Source: Bacillus sp. (in: firmicutes)
GTDB lineage: Bacteria; Bacillota; Bacilli; Bacillales; Salisediminibacteriaceae
Assembly (NCBI GenBank): GCA_003560495.1
Contig: PWLM01000046.1
Span: 32,326-96,325 of the forward strand
Reading direction: 5' to 3'
DNA: 64,000 nucleotides
The notes under the pieces were generated by a model, which searched no databases, was not told the DNA's origin, and saw only the letters and a list, made by a program, of their open reading frames with translations. Positions within the stretch are counted from its first letter, which is position 1; each line of letters starts with the position of its first letter. The position numbers were made by a program, and so were the translations under genes. Positions 3,247-61,754 of the stretch are shown piece by piece.

Positions 3247-3454
3247 TCTTTATACCTCCATTTTCAATTGAAAAATTATACATATTTTAAAACGGTTCTA
3301 TCGTAAGTCCCTGTTGTCATAACGGAAAACTGCGCGGTCGATAAAAAGCTTTTCCACTTTCAGAATACAGCTCTGTTATTATCCACATTTTTATCAGGAA
3401 AACTTCACTGCAGACTTACGTAAAGAGGACTGATTCTTTAACAAAGCCCACTAA

Positions 3455-3715
3455 AAAAGCCCCCTGTCGTTGGACAAGGGACGATTATTACCGTGGTACC
3501 ACCCAGTTTTGAGAAAAAAATTTCTCCGCTCTGCCGTTTAACGCCCGGAACGCGCCTTTCATTTCTGAAAGGAAGCTCAAAGACCGTAATTCACTGACAC
3601 CTCTGTACTGGTTCGCATCAACCACCAGCTTTCTGCAACAGGGAAGTATACAGCTACTTTATCTTTTCATCGCTGAATGCTATTTATCTTTATTATTTCT
3701 ATCACAAAAAATGTT
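3455..3715 (-). promoter_or_regulatory. T-box leader of tyrS
   Basis: Reverse complement contains the T-box signature tgggtggtaccacg followed by terminator stem cccttgtccaacgacaggggg and a T run; candidate UAC specifier in gtgaattacggtc. Confidence 0.9.
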
Positions 3716-3805
3716 TTTCTGTCAAGATTACCTTCCCTTTACTTTCCTTCACTGCTTATATGTTATAATATAGGGTGATATTGCTATAATTAAGGGGGTT
3801 TCCAT

Positions 3806-6800
3806 GTGAGTAAAGGGTCATCTTCATGGAAGAATATATTTCATAAGGAAGGAACATCTGGAGTCACGAAAGGATTTCGTGTTACATCTGCAGTTGTCTG
3901 GAATCTGGTGCTGGTTATATTTGTAATCGGGCTTATCGGTGTGGCGTTTGCAGGCGGAGCCGGGGCAGGCTATTTTGCCTCGCTCGTTCAGGATGAACCG
4001 ATACGCGATTATGAAGAACTACACACCGAAATTTATGATTTTGAAGAAGCTTCGGAAGTTTATTTTGCAGACAATGAATACTTAGGAGATCTCGTTGCTC
4101 CTTTGGAACGCCGGGAAGTTTCGCTGGACGAAGTCTCGGATAATCTTATTAACGCTATTATTGCAACAGAAGACGAATACTTTTTTGAACATGAAGGAAT
4201 TGTGCCGAAAGCACTGATGCGGGCAGTGATGCAGGACTTCTCCAACGCAGCAACGCAGACTGGAGGAAGTACGCTCACACAGCAGCTTGTAAAAAACCAG
4301 GTACTTTCCAGTGAAGTTACCCACGATAGAAAAGCCGTAGAAATTCTACTCGCCATGCGTGTTGAACGATTCATGGATAAAGAAGATATTCTGGAAGCCT
4401 ACCTGAACGTAGTACCTTTTGGACGTAATGCTTCCGGTGTTCAGATCGCCGGTGCCCAGGCCGCTGCCGAAGGAATTTTTGACACGGAGGTATCTGAATT
4501 AACTATCCCTCAATCGGCATTTATTGCAGGACTTCCGCAGAGCCCCTTCGCCTATACGCCATTTACAAACGATGCAGAGCAGAAGGAATCAATCGAAGCC
4601 GGCACCAATCGTATGGGCACAGTATTACGCCGTATGAAAGACAGCGGCTATATCGATGAGGAACAATATGAAGAAGCGCTGAACTATGATATTCGCCAAG
4701 ACTTCGCAGAACCTCAGCCTTCCAGTCTGGACGAATACCCTTATATAGTAGACGCTGCCCGGGAAAAAGCCCACGGAATCATCATGAACCACTTGATGGA
4801 GGAAGACGATGTAGTACTTGAAGAAATTGAAGATGAAGACTACCGTGCCCTCGTGAGAAGCCGATATAATGAGGCCGCAGAGGAAGAACTCCAGCAGGGT
4901 GGATTCGAAATTCATACGACTATCCATAAAGATATTTACGATGCACAGCAGGAAGCAGTTGAAAACTTTGACCACTTCGCTCCAAACCAGACTGCCATGA
5001 TCGAAGTTGGCGAAGAAGGGGAAGAAGAAGAAGTAGAAATGGAATTTATGGAACAGACCGGTGCGGTCATGATCGACAATCGTACAGGTGGTATTATCAG
5101 TTTTGTCGCCGGCCGCGATTATGAGGAAAGCAATTTCAACCGTGCCACAGGTAACATGCGCCGCCACACTGGTTCTACAATGAAATCCCTGCTCACCTAC
5201 GCTGTAGGTTTCGAAACGGGATCACTTCAGCCGGGGTACATTACGGCAGACATTCCTTACGACTACGAAGCCGATGAATTCGATGAGGACCCGGCCAACG
5301 AAGTGTCCAACTTTGATAACAGCCATTCAGGTCTTATTACAGTGCGCGAAGCACTTTCCCGTTCGAGAAACGTACCTGCGGTAAGAGAAATGAGCTTTAT
5401 TGATCACGACACAGCAAGAGAGGCACTTATCAATTATGGATTTGAGCCTTATATGGGTGGAGATGAAGGTATCCCTTACCAGTCTACAGCTCTTGGAACA
5501 CTCGGAATGAACGTAGAAGCTAACACAAGTGCTTTTTCCACCTTCGGTAATGACGGAAAGCGAAAAGAATCCTACATGGTGGAGCGTATTGTAGATTCCA
5601 ACGGCGAGACTATTTTCGAAGAGAACGCGGAAGATGAAATAGAGATTCTTTCGGAAGAAACAAATTACTTGATGATTGACGTTATGCGGGACGTAATGGA
5701 ATCCGGTCTTGGTACCGCTCCACAGCTCCCTGGATTTCTTGACTTCGAATCAGATCTTGCCGGGAAAACCGGTACAAGTAACGAAACGCGGGACGCCTGG
5801 TTTGTCGGTCTTAACCCGAATGTTACGATGGGAATATGGGTAGGTTATGATACAGAACAGATTCCTGTACCGCAGGAACATGACGGCATCTCCTACGGTC
5901 CACGAACCCAGATGCTCTGGGCAGAACTCGCTAACGCAGCCTACGACGTGAACGATACGCTGATGGCACCGGAAGAAGAGTTCCAGCAGCCGGATGGAGT
6001 AGTAGAAGAAGAAGTGTGCGGGGTCTCCGGAATGGCACCAACTGAACGATGTGAAGATGCCGGACTGGTAACAACAGACCTCTTCAATGAAGAATTCGCA
6101 CCTTCAGAAGACGGTGATGATGATATGATCGATTACGTGCAGATTGATGGAGACAATTACCTTGCTCTTGACAGCACACCTTCTGAGTTTACACGAAGTG
6201 GTGTAGCGATGCTGGATGAACGATTTGACTTTTCATCAGATGACCTTTCTGAGTACCTTCCTTCTGATTGGGATGATCTTGCTTCAGCCAGTGAAGAAGC
6301 TCCGGACAACGGCCGCACACCAAGTACTATGCCGGACATTGACAGCGGCTCCTCTTCCATCTCATGGGATGCCCATCCGGATGAAGAAGTGATTGGCTAC
6401 CGGGTATACCACGCTTCCAGTGAAGGCGGAAGCTTTTCTGAAGTAGAAAGTGTACGCTGGGATGAAGATTTTTCTTACTCCGGCAGTTCGGGAGCCTATC
6501 GTGTAACAGCAGTGGACGTTGCCGGCCGGGAATCGAGTCCGAGTAATTCTGTAACCGTTGGATCAGGCTCTACCGACAGCGACGACGATGAGTCTGATGA
6601 AAATACAGGAAGTAATGATGAAGATACAACCGATAATACTTCCAATAACTATGATGAAAACGACAACAGTGCAGCAACAGACGATGAATCCAATGATAAC
6701 AATTCGGACAACAATAACGGTTCGAACGATAATGCAGAAAACAACAACCAGGAAAATAATGCCGGGACTGATAACACCCCGGCAGACACTGGTTCAAACA

Positions 6801-25674: not shown

Positions 25675-26121
25675 ATGCAGCTGACAGTTTATCTGGCTGG
25701 CCAGATCCATGATGACTGGCGCCAAAACTTGAAAGACAAGGCTTCGGAGAAAAACCTTCCGGTAACTTTTGTCGGACCTATGGAAAATCACGACCGTTCC
25801 GATAACATCGGAGAAGAAATCCTCGGAAAACAGCCGGATAACATTATCCGGGATGAAGCAGCTTCCCAGATGAATAATCTGAGAACCCGTGTTTTGATGA
25901 ACAAATCCGATATAGTCATTGCCCTTTTCGGGGAAAAATACAAGCAGTGGAACAGTGCGATGGATGCCGGCGCAGCTCTTGCCACAGACAAACCGCTGAT
26001 TCTCGTGCGCCCTGCCTCATTGCACCATCCATTAAAGGAAATTTCGGAAAAAGCCCAGGTAACAGTAGAAACGGCTGATCAGGCTCTCGAAGCTCTTGCC
26101 TATATTTTCGCCGAAAAATAA
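25675..26121 (+). CDS. ytoQ: YtoQ family protein
   Basis: MQLTVYLAGQIHDDWRQNLKDKA...FVGPMENHDRSDNIGEEILG. Confidence 0.9.
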   Translation: MQLTVYLAGQIHDDWRQNLKDKASEKNLPVTFVGPMENHDRSDNIGEEILGKQPDNIIRDEAASQMNNLRTRVLMNKSDIVIALFGEKYKQWNSAMDAGAALATDKPLILVRPASLHHPLKEISEKAQVTVETADQALEALAYIFAEK

Positions 26122-26171
26122 ACGATAATATAAGCTGGTTTAACGAATCCGCTGAAATTATCACCGCGTAT

Positions 26172-26206
26172 AAAAAGCCGTCTCAGCATCCGTCTGAGAC
26201 GGCTTT
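26172..26206. terminator. Terminator hairpin A-left (duplicated)
   Basis: aaaaagccgtctcagcatccgtctgagacggcttt. Confidence 0.85.
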
Positions 26207-26513
26207 CCGGGCGGGACGGCCTCAGCTAATTTCTTCCTGCCATTGCTCGGAAGAAATGGATCTTCGGCTCGTCCCCTGCGGCTCCAGCAGGGAAATAATA
26301 TAGAAAATCCCAGTCCTAACAAAGCACGCTGTACCGGTCTTATTCTTTCACAAGGGGACACCCGTGGGATCAGCGACGTCGACAGATCCTTTTCTGAAGA
26401 AACTCAGCTTCGGCAGAAACAGCCGATGACGAGCCCCATGGCAGGGCTGAGCGCAGGAGAAAGCTATACTCTGGAAGAATTATTCTGAAATCAAGACTTA
26501 ATCAACACTCTGA
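26207..26513 (-). mobile_element. Terminator-associated repeat, copy A (one end truncated)
   Basis: Reverse complement starts cagagtgttgattaagtcttgatttcagaataattcttccagagtatagctttctcctgcgctcagccctgcc, nearly identical to copy B; other end lacks about 75 bp. Confidence 0.9.
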
Positions 26514-26548
26514 AAAACCGTCTAAGTATCCGTCTGAGACGGTTTTTT
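26514..26548. terminator. Terminator hairpin A-right (duplicate of 26172-26206)
   Basis: aaaaaccgtctaagtatccgtctgagacggttttt. Confidence 0.85.
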
Positions 26549-26604
26549 GCATTTTGCCAACAAACAGTACTTTCAAAGGGTGTGTTTACAGACAATTTAT
26601 TAGT

Positions 26605-27678
26605 TTAGACGTTATTACGAATCGTTTCCAGTGTTGTTTTGTCGGTATTTTTAACAAGCGTAACAATTAATTCTTTCGCTGCTGCGTAATCATCCACATG
26701 CATAATGGAAGCAGCTGTATGAATATAACGTGAGCATACGCCGATAACTGCCGACGGCACACCATTATTTGAAATGTGCACTCTTCCAGCATCCGTTCCC
26801 CCCTGGGAAATGAAATACTGGTACGGGATTTTGTTTGTTTCTGCTGTATCAAGTACAAACTCTCTCATTCCCCGGTGCGTAATCATCGTGCGGTCAAAAA
26901 TCCGGAGAAGTGCGCCTTTACCGAGATGACCAAAAGCATCTTTTTCACCGGAAGCATCGTTTGCAGGACTGGCATCCAGCGCATAAAAAATATCAGGCTG
27001 AATCATATTGGCTGCAGCCTGCGCTCCTCTCAGGCCAACCTCCTCCTGCACCGTCGCCCCGGAATACAATGTATTTGCAGGCTGTTCGTTCTTGAGCTCC
27101 TTCAAAAGTTCAATGGCCAAACCAACTCCATATCTGTTGTCCCAGGCTTTTGCCAGCAGCTTTTTTTCATTGGCCATTGTTTCCATCGGACAAACCGGCA
27201 CAATTTGCTGCCCTGGTTTAATTCCAATTCTCTCTGCATCTTCCTTATCATCTGCCCCAATGTCGATATACATGTTTTTAATATCCATCGGCTTTTTCCG
27301 CTTTGCTTCATCCAGAAGATGAGGAGGAATGGACCCTACTACCCCTGTCACCGGGCCATTGTCGGTAATAATATGGAGACGCTGCGCCAGAAGCACCTGA
27401 CTCCACCATCCGCCGAGTGTCTGAAAACGAATAAGACCTTTTTCGTTAATTGATGTAACCATAAATCCAACTTCGTCCATATGTCCTGCCACCATAACCC
27501 GGGGGCCGTCTTCCGGGCCTTTTTTTAATCCAAAAACGCCGCCCAGGCGGTCCTGTACAATTTCATCACTGTATTTCTGAAGCTCTTTTTTTACGTAACG
27601 ACGGACTTCATGCTCAAATCCAGGGGCCCCCGGAAGCTGAGTTAAAGTTTCGAACATTTTGTAAGTTTCCTGATTCAT
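26605..27678 (-). CDS. ytoP: M42 family metallopeptidase (glutamyl aminopeptidase-like, YtoP)
   Basis: [12 protein letters not shown]...[12 protein letters not shown]...[14 protein letters not shown]42 motifs. Confidence 0.92.
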
Positions 27679-28004
27679 GTGTTCACCCTCCTGTGTATAT
27701 GTATCTGTACTTATTTTACCGGAGAATTTATCGCGTTTCCAGTTTTTTCGAAAATCGAAAGATATGGAGAAAGGAATTTTGAACAGAGTTTTCAGACCTC
27801 ATATTGAGTACGATGAAAAACAAGAAAGGAGCAGGGGTATATCGGATAACAGGCTGGCAGAGAGGGAATTTTATGACAGGCTTTGGGAGGCCAACACCTT
27901 TCTGTATGATTCCCTTTTGAAAACCCTCTCACAATCATTGGCATTTTCAGATGCTTTCAGTATACTAGGGGAAAGACATGTAAATTAAGAAGGAGTGTTG
28001 TTTT

Positions 28005-28325
28005 ATGAGCTGGAAAGGTTTTGCTGCAGGAATCGGGGCAGGAGTAGCTGCTACGGTACTGGCTAAAAATGCCCTCGATCAAAAGGAAACGCTGCTTTCT
28101 CCCGAGAAAGCTTTAAAACTTGCAAAGAAAAAGGCTGCCGATCTCGGCACTGTAGAAGGATCATGGGTGCACATGATGACAGAGCAGTATGAGCACGGAA
28201 ACCTGATCTACGATGTTTATAAAGGCGGCATCACTGTTTCCGAACCGGAAGGAACAGTTAATGCTTATGAATTTTACGTTGATGCCCCTACCGGAACGAT
28301 CATCGAACTCGTTAAACAGGACTGA
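28005..28325 (+). CDS. Small PepSY-domain-like protein
   Basis: 106 aa; EKALKLAKKKAADLGTVEGSWVHMMTEQYEHGNLIYDVYKGGI; good RBS aaggagtg. Confidence 0.8.
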   Translation: MSWKGFAAGIGAGVAATVLAKNALDQKETLLSPEKALKLAKKKAADLGTVEGSWVHMMTEQYEHGNLIYDVYKGGITVSEPEGTVNAYEFYVDAPTGTIIELVKQD

Positions 28326-28327
28326 TA

Positions 28328-28364
28328 AAAAACCGGCAGCGTCGTATGAGCGCTGCCGGTTTTT
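28328..28364. terminator. Terminator hairpin B-left (duplicated)
   Basis: aaaaaccggcagcgtcgtatgagcgctgccggttttt. Confidence 0.9.
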
Positions 28365-28781
28365 CAGAGTGTTGATTAAGTCTTGATTTCAGAATAATTC
28401 TTCCAGAGTATAGCTTTCTCCTGCGCTCAGCCCTGCCGTGGGGCTCGTCGTCAGCTGTTTGCCCTCCGGCTTTGAAAAGGATCTTCCGACTTCGCTCAAT
28501 CCCACCGGCGTCTCCGCCCGACGTTCCGGAGGAAAAAGCCTCTCCTGAATGGAAGAAAGGGCGGAATCAACACGTTTTTTAGAAGAGAAAACTACTTTTT
28601 CTTTTCCTGTTGGAGTTGCAGCAGGCGACTCCGGGGCGAGATAGGACGAGCAGAAGATCCATTTCTTCCGAGCATTGCTCGGAAGAAATTAGCTGAAGCC
28701 GGCCCGCCCGGAAAGCGTCCTGCGGAGGCGAAAGCAGGGAAATGTCTACGCCTGTATAAAAAATACTTTATAAACAGCCTG
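28365..28781 (+). mobile_element. Terminator-associated repeat, copy B (full-length type, 417 bp)
   Basis: Starts cagagtgttgattaag..., ends ...aaatactttataaacagcctg (imperfect TIRs); homologous to copy C along its length. Confidence 0.92.
28651..28692. repeat. Internal perfect hairpin of copy B
   Basis: tttcttccgagc-att-gctcggaagaaa; only partly kept in copy A and lost in copy C. Confidence 0.8.
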
Positions 28782-28818
28782 AAAAACCGGCAGCGCCGTA
28801 TGAGCGCTGCCGGTTTTT
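28782..28818. terminator. Terminator hairpin B-right (duplicate of 28328-28364)
   Basis: aaaaaccggcagcgccgtatgagcgctgccggttttt; one nt different from left copy. Confidence 0.9.
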
Positions 28819-28862
28819 AGTTTTTTGATCAAGTTCTTTTGTTGAAATAATTGTTCCACCGT
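28819..28862 (+). mobile_element. Decayed left-end fragment of the repeat (relic F), after hairpin B-right
   Basis: ttgatcaagttcttttgttgaaataattgttccac versus ttgattaagtcttgatttcagaataattcttccag. Confidence 0.55.
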
Positions 28863-28943
28863 TTGTATAAGTTTTTGCTGTGTCCCGCGGAAGCTGTTCG
28901 CCCTACTCTTAAACTGCTTTACCAATAACGGTAATACTGTTTT

Positions 28944-29813
28944 TTACTCACTTTCTTTGGCTTCTTCCCGAAGAAGACTTTCAACAATATCTTTCCCGTT
29001 TTCATCCCAGCGGAGCATTCGGTATTTGTAATCGTGATAAAACATAAACCAGGCACCTTGTTCAATGGCCGGCAGCGTGTATTCCTGCTTTTTTTCAATG
29101 GAATCGAGCGGATAATCATCGTACGCCAGTACCCACAGCACATTCTGGTGGGCATGTGTCGGCATAATATCTGCCATATGCCATATCTCCCGCTCCCCCC
29201 GGGAGATATTGAGAATGCAGTGACCTGCGCTGTGTCCGCCTGTGTGAATAAGACGTATACCCGGGACTACTTCTTTCTCTTTTTCAAAGGTTTTGACCTG
29301 GTGCTCAATCGCATCCCAGTTTTCCTTGAAATATGTATTCCTGGAACGGATATTTGGGTTCTTCATTTCCTCCCACTCGATATCATTCACCCAGATCACT
29401 GCATTCGGATACATAGGTTTCCTGCCTTCTTCTGTTTCTTTCGTCAGTCCCATCGAATGATCAAAATGCATATGCGTCATCAGAACGTCACTGATGTCCT
29501 CCGGGCTCAGACCAAGATCGCTGAGGTTCTCCTCAACAGAAGATTCTTCCGTCACACCATAGTTTTTCATTGCTTTTTCTGAAAGCCGGCCGCGGCCGAT
29601 GCCGCCTTCCATAATCATATTTCTTCCTTCTGCCTGTATCAGAACCGGGTCGCACCGGAGTTCTATCTGGTTTTTTTCATTAACCGGATATTTTCTGGAC
29701 CAGAGAGGCTTTGGTACAACGCCGAACATTGCCCCTCCATCCATATTCGTGTCCCCGCCGTTGAGCCATGTTAACGTCGTATCTCCGCTTACGTGAAACT
29801 GTTCAAGCGTCAT
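28944..29813 (-). CDS. ytnP: MBL-fold metallohydrolase (YtnP lactonase-like)
   Basis: VLMTHMHFDHSMGLT (HxHxDH), ...IHTGGHSAGHCIL; synteny next to trmB. Confidence 0.88.
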   Translation of the reverse strand: MTLEQFHVSGDTTLTWLNGGDTNMDGGAMFGVVPKPLWSRKYPVNEKNQIELRCDPVLIQAEGRNMIMEGGIGRGRLSEKAMKNYGVTEESSVEENLSDLGLSPEDISDVLMTHMHFDHSMGLTKETEEGRKPMYPNAVIWVNDIEWEEMKNPNIRSRNTYFKENWDAIEHQVKTFEKEKEVVPGIRLIHTGGHSAGHCILNISRGEREIWHMADIMPTHAHQNVLWVLAYDDYPLDSIEKKQEYTLPAIEQGAWFMFYHDYKYRMLRWDENGKDIVESLLREEAKESE

Positions 29814-44843: not shown

Positions 44844-44872
44844 AAGCCTCCGTCTTTTATAAGACGGAGGCT
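44844..44872. terminator. Terminator hairpin D-left; exact 29-bp duplicate at 47962-47990
   Basis: aagcctccgtcttttataagacggaggct; A run on the left is the T-tract for minus-strand transcription. Confidence 0.9.
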
Positions 44873-44873
44873 C

Positions 44874-44965
44874 CAGACTGTTTATAAAGTATTTTTTATG
44901 AATGGTTATACGCTTCCCTGCTTCCGCCTTCCAGGGGACGCTTTCCGGCGGGCCGGCTCTTATAG
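44874..44965 (-). mobile_element. Truncated end of the terminator-associated repeat (copy D)
   Basis: cagactgtttataaagtattttttat...ttccctgcttccgccttccaggggacgctttccggcgggccggct matches the reverse complement of the copy B right end. Confidence 0.8.
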
Positions 44966-51661: not shown

Positions 51662-51880
51662 TTGAAACCGTCAACTGACCGTATGTTAACTCGTATTAAA
51701 TCTGTTTATCTTTACATTAAACAGAAAGGGAGCGTCTCTACGAAAGATCTGGTTGAAGAATTCGGTACAACTGAACGTACCATTCAACGGGATTTGAACG
51801 TCCTTGAATATAATGGTCTCGTGGAACCACAGGAGCGTGGAACCTGGGCTGTTACCAGTAAAAAAACAAAAGCTTCTTAA
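51662..51880 (+). CDS. ytzE: DeoR-type HTH regulator (YtzE-like)
   Basis: RIKSVYLYIKQKGSVSTKDLVEEFGTTERTIQRDLNVLEYNGLVE. Confidence 0.88.
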   Translation: MKPSTDRMLTRIKSVYLYIKQKGSVSTKDLVEEFGTTERTIQRDLNVLEYNGLVEPQERGTWAVTSKKTKAS

Positions 51881-51922
51881 ACATAAACAAGGAGCGGGCC
51901 CGGCCCGCTCCTTGTTTATGTT
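51880..51922. terminator. Perfect 43-bp palindromic bidirectional terminator
   Basis: aacataaacaaggagcgggcc-c-ggcccgctccttgtttatgtt: 21-bp stem; overlaps both stop codons. Confidence 0.9.
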
Positions 51923-61281: not shown

Positions 61282-61313
61282 GGGGGACAGGACAATCTTT
61301 TGTCCTGTCCCCC
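61282..61313. terminator. Terminator hairpin C-left (duplicated)
   Basis: gggggacaggacaatcttttgtcctgtccccc. Confidence 0.85.
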
Positions 61314-61722
61314 AGAGTGTTAATTAAGTCTTGATTTTAGAATCATTATTCTTCTGAACGTCCAGCTTTCTCCTGCGCTCAGCCCTTGCCGTGGGGCTCG
61401 TCGTCAGCTGTTTGTCCTGCCGGCTTTGAAAAGGATCTTCCGATTTCGCTTTCTCCCACCGGCGTCCCCGCCGGACGTTCCGGAGGAAAAAGCCTCTCCT
61501 GAATGGAAGAAAGGGCGGAATCAACACGTTTTTAGAAGAGAAAACTTCTTTTTATTTTCCTGCTGGAGCTGCAGCAGGCGACTCCCTGGGCGATAGAGGA
61601 CGAGCAGAAGATCCGTTTGAGAGGAAGAAATCAGCTGAAGCCGGCCCGCCCGGAAATCGTCCTGTGGAGGCGAGAGCAGGGAAATGTCTACGCATGTATA
61701 AAAAACACTTTATAAACAGCCT
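61314..61722 (+). mobile_element. Terminator-associated repeat, copy C (full-length type, about 409 bp)
   Basis: agagtgttaattaagtcttgattttagaat...gtataaaaaacactttataaacagcct; collinear with copy B. Confidence 0.92.
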
Positions 61723-61754
61723 GGGGTACAGGACAATTTTTTGTCCTGTACCCC
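61723..61754. terminator. Terminator hairpin C-right (duplicate of 61282-61313)
   Basis: ggggtacaggacaattttttgtcctgtacccc. Confidence 0.85.

Follow-up and report, generated by a model that had tools for sequence, protein, structure and literature searches.

The 417-bp non-coding element at positions 28365–28781 of the window, the 64,000-nucleotide stretch of DNA analysed here, is very probably a MITE of an IS1182-family subgroup that would be moved in trans by a transposase targeting terminator hairpins and duplicating the whole hairpin. In this genome, that of a salt-loving Alkalicoccus, at least about 40 scored places hold the element. The window lies on contig C230; the source assembly comprises 2.87 Mb in 256 contigs and is about 80% complete. 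As the assembly is fragmented and copies often lie at contig ends, copy counts are lower bounds. The copy studied, copy B, starts exactly at CAG (28365), ends exactly at CTG (28781) and is sited between the convergent genes 28005–28325 (+) and 28944–29813 (−). The features at this locus are:

28328–28364, no strand: left copy of the 37-bp target-site duplication (TSD) of copy B, a complete terminator hairpin with stem 15 and loop 7, matching the right copy at 36/37 positions; hairpin span 37, centre offset 0
28365–28781, + strand: copy B, full-length and MITE-like, 417 bp, from a left end of CAGAG type to a right end of CAGGC type; boundaries from 40 full-length copies and exact hairpin duplications, orthologous site empty in A. 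saliphilus
28365–28384, + strand: left terminal inverted repeat of copy B, CAGAGTGTTGATTAAGTCTT, conserved genome-wide
28762–28781, − strand: right terminal inverted repeat of copy B, CAGGCTGTTTATAAAGTATT, conserved genome-wide
28782–28818, no strand: right copy of the 37-bp TSD, the same hairpin followed by a T-rich tail, scored as intrinsic-terminator-like; a single hairpin here in A. saliphilus

Compared with CAGGCTGTTTATAAAGTATT on the opposite strand, the left end CAGAGTGTTGATTAAGTCTT is identical at 15 of 20 positions, with five mismatches, a level reached by chance between unrelated 20-mers with a probability of about 4e-6 to 3e-4. The first-pass annotation had described these imperfect terminal inverted repeats and had recognized both ends in copy C, the left-type end in copy A and the right-type end in copy D. 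Our analysis bears this out, and finds that copy A has lost its right end:

26173–26206, no strand: hairpin duplication on the outer side of copy A (family D2)
26207–26512, − strand: copy A, an older 306-bp copy with its right end lost; left end at 26493–26512
26513–26546, no strand: hairpin duplication on the other side of copy A (family D2), 88% identical to 26173–26206
44845–44872, no strand: terminator-type hairpin beside the end of copy D
44874–44958, − strand: copy D, an 85-bp remnant with the right end CAGACTGTTTATAAAGTATT at 44874–44893; 82.6% identity to query positions 334–418
61283–61312, no strand: hairpin duplication of copy C (30 bp), left side; dyad-centred, with 27/30 positions identical on the right side
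61313–61723, + strand: copy C, full-length, 411 bp, with both ends; orthologous site empty in A. saliphilus (L213)
61724–61753, no strand: hairpin duplication of copy C (30 bp), right side

The hairpin pair of copy A is also found at the orthologous locus of A. saliphilus, and this copy is therefore considered old.

The ends had also been proposed to be the boundaries of the element, and the alignment of 40 full-length copies from three to four genomes (386–434 bp; pairwise identity 66–99.5%, median 87%) confirms it by a sharp drop in conservation. Homology ends at CAG...CTG: the information content inside the ends is about 1.3–2 bits per base, with the exception of the right end's final base and two variable columns, whereas within about 4 bp outside the ends it is near zero. 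The residual outside signal consists of 3–4 bp of T (left) or A (right), the A/T tracts of the target terminators. Across the 2.87-Mb assembly the terminus pattern CAGNSTGTTNATNAAGTNTT recurs without mismatch 57 times, and its reversed control not once; neither homology past the ends nor a lack of a conserved terminus is therefore seen. The same pattern yields 75 matches in A. saliphilus and 38 in genome G006, with zero for the reversed control in each. It occurs in six of 36 genomes of the bacterial family, one of them outside Alkalicoccus and with a single match, and is almost confined to Alkalicoccus within this family. Matches to a left-end pattern that carry a name are limited to Alkalicoccus saliphilus 6AG and an Alkalicoccus MAG, from which the genus is taken to be Alkalicoccus. 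A plasmid collection gave no match.

As in a MITE, the element is short, present in many copies and without a transposase gene, and it has both target-site duplications and empty sites. No open reading frame of at least 80 amino acids was found inside copy B, and Rfam models gave no match near the gathering score in the region 25900–29000, so that the element does not fall into a known structured RNA family. On both strands, copy B is predicted to fold more stably as RNA than shuffled sequences do (z about −4.2), as expected from the internal inverted repeats of the sequence. A perfect internal hairpin, ATTTCTTCCGAGCATTGCTCGGAAGAAAT, lies within copy B at 28661–28689.

The adjacency of the ends to duplicated hairpins, which had been noted before, is real; the hairpins are, however, not separate features but the TSD itself, the whole terminator hairpin being copied on each side and centred on its dyad. 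Listing the flanks copy by copy reveals the same hairpin on both sides of a given copy, whereas the hairpin changes from locus to locus. A hairpin scoring at least 20 adjoins 78% of the 109 distinct termini, compared to 0.9% of stretches lying some 300 bp off (Mann-Whitney p 4e-27); about 22% of the termini are without an adjoining strong hairpin. Clean TSDs, that is, ungapped flank matches, are found in 29 copies over 28–37 bp (median 33), and several are perfect (e.g. 35/35, 34/34, 33/33 and 29/29). When the flanks are joined in silico, the centre of the hairpin coincides exactly with the centre of the TSD in 25 of these 29 copies and lies within 1 bp in 28, while 20,000 permutations of one side gave 3.4 exact matches on average and 11 at most. 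The hairpin foot is at most 1 bp from the TSD end in most copies, with exceptions that are mainly A/T extensions. Regressing TSD length on loop and stem length gave a loop coefficient of 1.00, which corresponds to one additional base pair of TSD per loop base, and the insertion points are mirror-symmetric across loops of 3–8. Several copies (L042, L053 and L056) are flanked by two different hairpins or by one; like the termini that lack a strong hairpin, they tell against this reading, and we assume that they are decayed or rearranged.

Comparison with orthologous loci informs on how this arrangement came about. A. saliphilus carries one 37-bp hairpin without the element at the ortholog of copy B, and one hairpin without the element at the ortholog of copy C. 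Conversely, this genome lacks the element at the site of the A. saliphilus insertion L048 (locus L253), where the same hairpin occurs once, and the pairs L033/L238, L177/L269 and L209/L227 give the same picture with more divergence. These empty sites and the IS-type termini support the earlier proposal of transposase-mediated mobility over simple tandem duplication, and the genome comparison suggests that the element is mobile. It is exceedingly improbable that tandem duplication of, or recombination between, pre-existing hairpins produced the structures without any transposition. Terminator hairpins are indeed repeated sequences able to recombine, but here each hairpin is specific to its locus and matched only between its own two sides, the same element lies between unrelated hairpins, and exactly one hairpin copy is present at orthologous empty sites. 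The idea that the hairpins belong to the element, which would bring its own terminators, could be drawn from the fact that most ends have an adjoining hairpin; we give it practically no credence, as the hairpin sequence is not conserved between copies, the information content outside the ends is near zero, and the hairpin exists at empty sites that have no element. The locus-specific hairpins together with the empty sites contradict both tandem duplication and element-borne hairpins.

Two further observations concern the hairpins themselves. In G006, an element of a different subfamily (L167; contig C4, 1883–2185) was independently inserted in the same terminator as copy B, its hairpin TSD being likewise 37 bp long. 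In some terminator hairpins the loop is inverted with respect to the ortholog, reading for example CGCCGTATGAGCG in the window and CGCTCATACGGCG in A. saliphilus. Such flips are seen at some insertions, namely on both sides of the insertion at 28365 (28328–28364 and 28782–28818) and at L092, L209 and L101. A tie between flipping and insertion was rejected, as the element-free hairpin 51880–51922 is also flipped relative to both relatives; hairpin flipping looks general rather than insertion-specific.

Ends of the same type are found in IS1182-family ISs of related genera, identified in the genomes G015 (L063, L082), G008 (L061) and G033 (L081). Their ends are CAGGCTGTTGAGAAAG / CAGATTGTCGAGAAAC or close variants, and their transposase reaches 485 bits for NF033551, whose cut-off is 270, and contains the Pfam domains DUF772 and DDE_Tnp_1_6. 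The MITE ends match those of IS1182-type ISs of other genera within one or two pattern positions, and the IS ends CAGAGTGTCGACAAACCT and CAGACTGTAGACAAAGTC in G018 are close to both MITE end types. Beyond the ends, about 100 bp of subterminal sequence are common to the ISs and the MITE: the MITE consensus aligns to the 5' non-coding part of L063 with 51.1 bits (200 shuffles: mean 18.7, maximum 26.8), and to L061 with 31.1 bits, barely above the shuffle maximum of 28.3. Ends and subterminal sequence thus both place the element with the IS1182 subgroup. The insertion pattern is similar as well, since all 13 distinct IS insertions with recoverable ends (G008, G015, G018, G033 and G044) have palindromic hairpin TSDs of 19–27 bp, 11 of them perfect and two with one mismatch. 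A palindromic or stem-loop target is accordingly found for the MITE, by its termini beside hairpins, and for the ISs, by their palindromic TSDs. An IS1182-type DDE transposase is present in the related ISs and missing from the element itself, which is therefore filed as an IS1182-family derivative and not as an IS1182 element.

The exact partner of the MITE is not among the ISs found, because the MITE termini GTTGATTAAG and GTTTATAAAG differ from the IS termini GTTGAGAAAG and the MITE TSDs, at 28–37 bp, are longer than those of the ISs. Searches with NF033551 and with transposase proteins returned no transposase of the matching subgroup and no autonomous element with the same ends in eight Alkalicoccus genomes, two of which are only about 80% complete, which makes this absence weak evidence. 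Similarly, no autonomous partner was found at 20 loci around unpaired ends in G001 (A. saliphilus) and G000. The IS1182 ISs of A. saliphilus (L064 and L083) were rejected as partners on account of their different ends. The link to IS families with long direct repeats that the first-pass annotation had suggested was right in spirit: the ends, the subterminal sequence and the hairpin-length repeats point to IS1182, although a matching transposase gene was not found in the genomes of the genus that were searched. IS1634 and IS1549 also have long, variable direct repeats, and on these grounds a MITE of another such family might be considered; this is very unlikely, as the ends, the subterminal sequence and the hairpin-centred TSDs fit IS1182-family ISs. 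In L063 (1174–1210), L061 and L081, the IS end beside the transposase gene is a hairpin followed by a T run (GGCTGTTGAGAAAGTTTTCTCAACAGCCTTTTTTT), which may be a terminator that shields the transposase gene.

The outcome of insertion, its symmetry, its length rule and its empty sites are direct observations, as is the like outcome for autonomous ISs. In the mechanism that we propose, the MITE would hold nothing of an IS1182-subgroup IS but its subterminal DNA and the ends that the transposase recognizes, and an IS1182-type DDE transposase from a lost or unsampled partner would move it in trans. This transposase would choose a terminator-type hairpin as target, regardless of its sequence, and would join the two element ends at mirror-image positions near the hairpin feet, one per strand. 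Gap repair would then copy the whole hairpin, leaving two complete terminators that flank each insertion. Cutting would be guided by structure, with the shape of the target deciding where the transposase cuts. The transposase would recognize an extruded hairpin, a cruciform, and not dyad symmetry in double-stranded DNA; for extrusion the sequences provide only indirect support. With modest confidence, we favour the view that in this IS1182 subgroup the TSD length is set by the folded target and not by the enzyme, and that joining near the feet of an extruded terminator hairpin duplicates it, as in the hypothetical pathway b for IS1272.

It is possible, though on balance we doubt it, that the transposase of the same IS1182-type MITE reads dyad symmetry or terminator features in double-stranded DNA, or a bound protein, instead of an extruded hairpin. 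No feature of the sequence shows extrusion, and the A/T tracts at the feet are a sequence feature common to the targets. Moreover, because terminator stems in these genomes are alike in length, a cut at the foot fits hardly better or worse than one that lies nearly always equally far from the loop (mean 14.0 bp, sd 1.0), and with natural terminators the two are indistinguishable. Fixed spacing does not, however, simply explain the one-for-one tracking of TSD and loop length or the mirror symmetry at loops of 3–8, and the target hairpins are unrelated in sequence.

The choice of stem-loops as targets has precedents in the IS1182 family. The staphylococcal elements IS1272 and TnSha1/TnSha2 of this family insert at stem-loops irrespective of sequence, and often at terminators (PMC5678879, PMC4923244), and the related ISs described here belong to the same transposase family. 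For IS1272 and TnSha1, the stem-loop is reported to be replaced or partly deleted, and no TSD to be formed (PMC5678879, PMC4923244). In contrast, the target stem-loop is not lost here, and the whole hairpin is found on both sides of the element. Wan et al. drew, as a hypothesis only, a pathway b in which the whole stem-loop would be duplicated through joining at its 5' feet (Fig. 13; PMC5678879). Siguier et al., as cited in the IS1272 work, mention that some IS1182 members target palindromes, without detailed data in that account.

The MITE is also close to the autonomous IS1182-family ISs of the same bacterial family and order (L061, L063, L082, L081, L281, L283, L284, L285 and others), with which it has in common CAG...CTG ends of the same type, subterminal sequence and hairpin-length, dyad-centred TSDs. 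They differ in having a transposase gene, TSDs of 19–27 instead of 28–37 bp, and a gene-side terminus that folds into its own hairpin. MITEs have also been assigned to an IS1182-family partner in Methanosarcina acetivorans, where the ISMac2-related MITEs measure 160 and 169 bp; unlike here, their direct repeats are short or lacking (4 and 0 bp), and the part of the report consulted describes no hairpin target (PMC3852290). The pneumococcal RUP, SPRITE and BOX are likewise small interspersed non-coding elements, SPRITE being terminator-like, but they have other sequences and other hosts, and no whole-hairpin TSD is described for them in the portions of the reports consulted (PMC10969869, PMC3049150). 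On the basis of a literature search of open-licence papers, we therefore regard the element as a MITE family that is new, and its hairpin-duplicating insertion as systematically documented here.

The TSD of DDE transposases is usually fixed in length. Here it varies over 28–37 bp (19–27 bp in the related ISs), tracks the hairpin base for base and is centred on the dyad, so that the sequences directly support insertion guided by structure in the IS1182 family. Whether a stem-loop is replaced, as by IS1272, or duplicated becomes experimentally testable. The arrangement also explains how a high-copy element can spread harmlessly, landing behind genes and leaving on either side a terminator that looks functional. 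If, as ISfinder has it, the direct repeats of IS1182 differ widely in length, individual instances of hairpin duplication may have been recorded before.

Related elements extend the picture within the genus. Sister element families in other Alkalicoccus species (L126 in G005, 1408–1830; L127 and L128 in G002; L118 in G007, 3361–3998) have internal modules at about 71–168 and 261–357 in common. The ends of L126 adjoin matching hairpins, and in L118 a MITE-type end is joined to an IS-type hairpin end. Finally, G000 contains two very short forms in which both ends are present, one of 140 bp with two right-type ends (contig C64, 10200–10339) and one of 167 bp (contig C160, 5035–5201).
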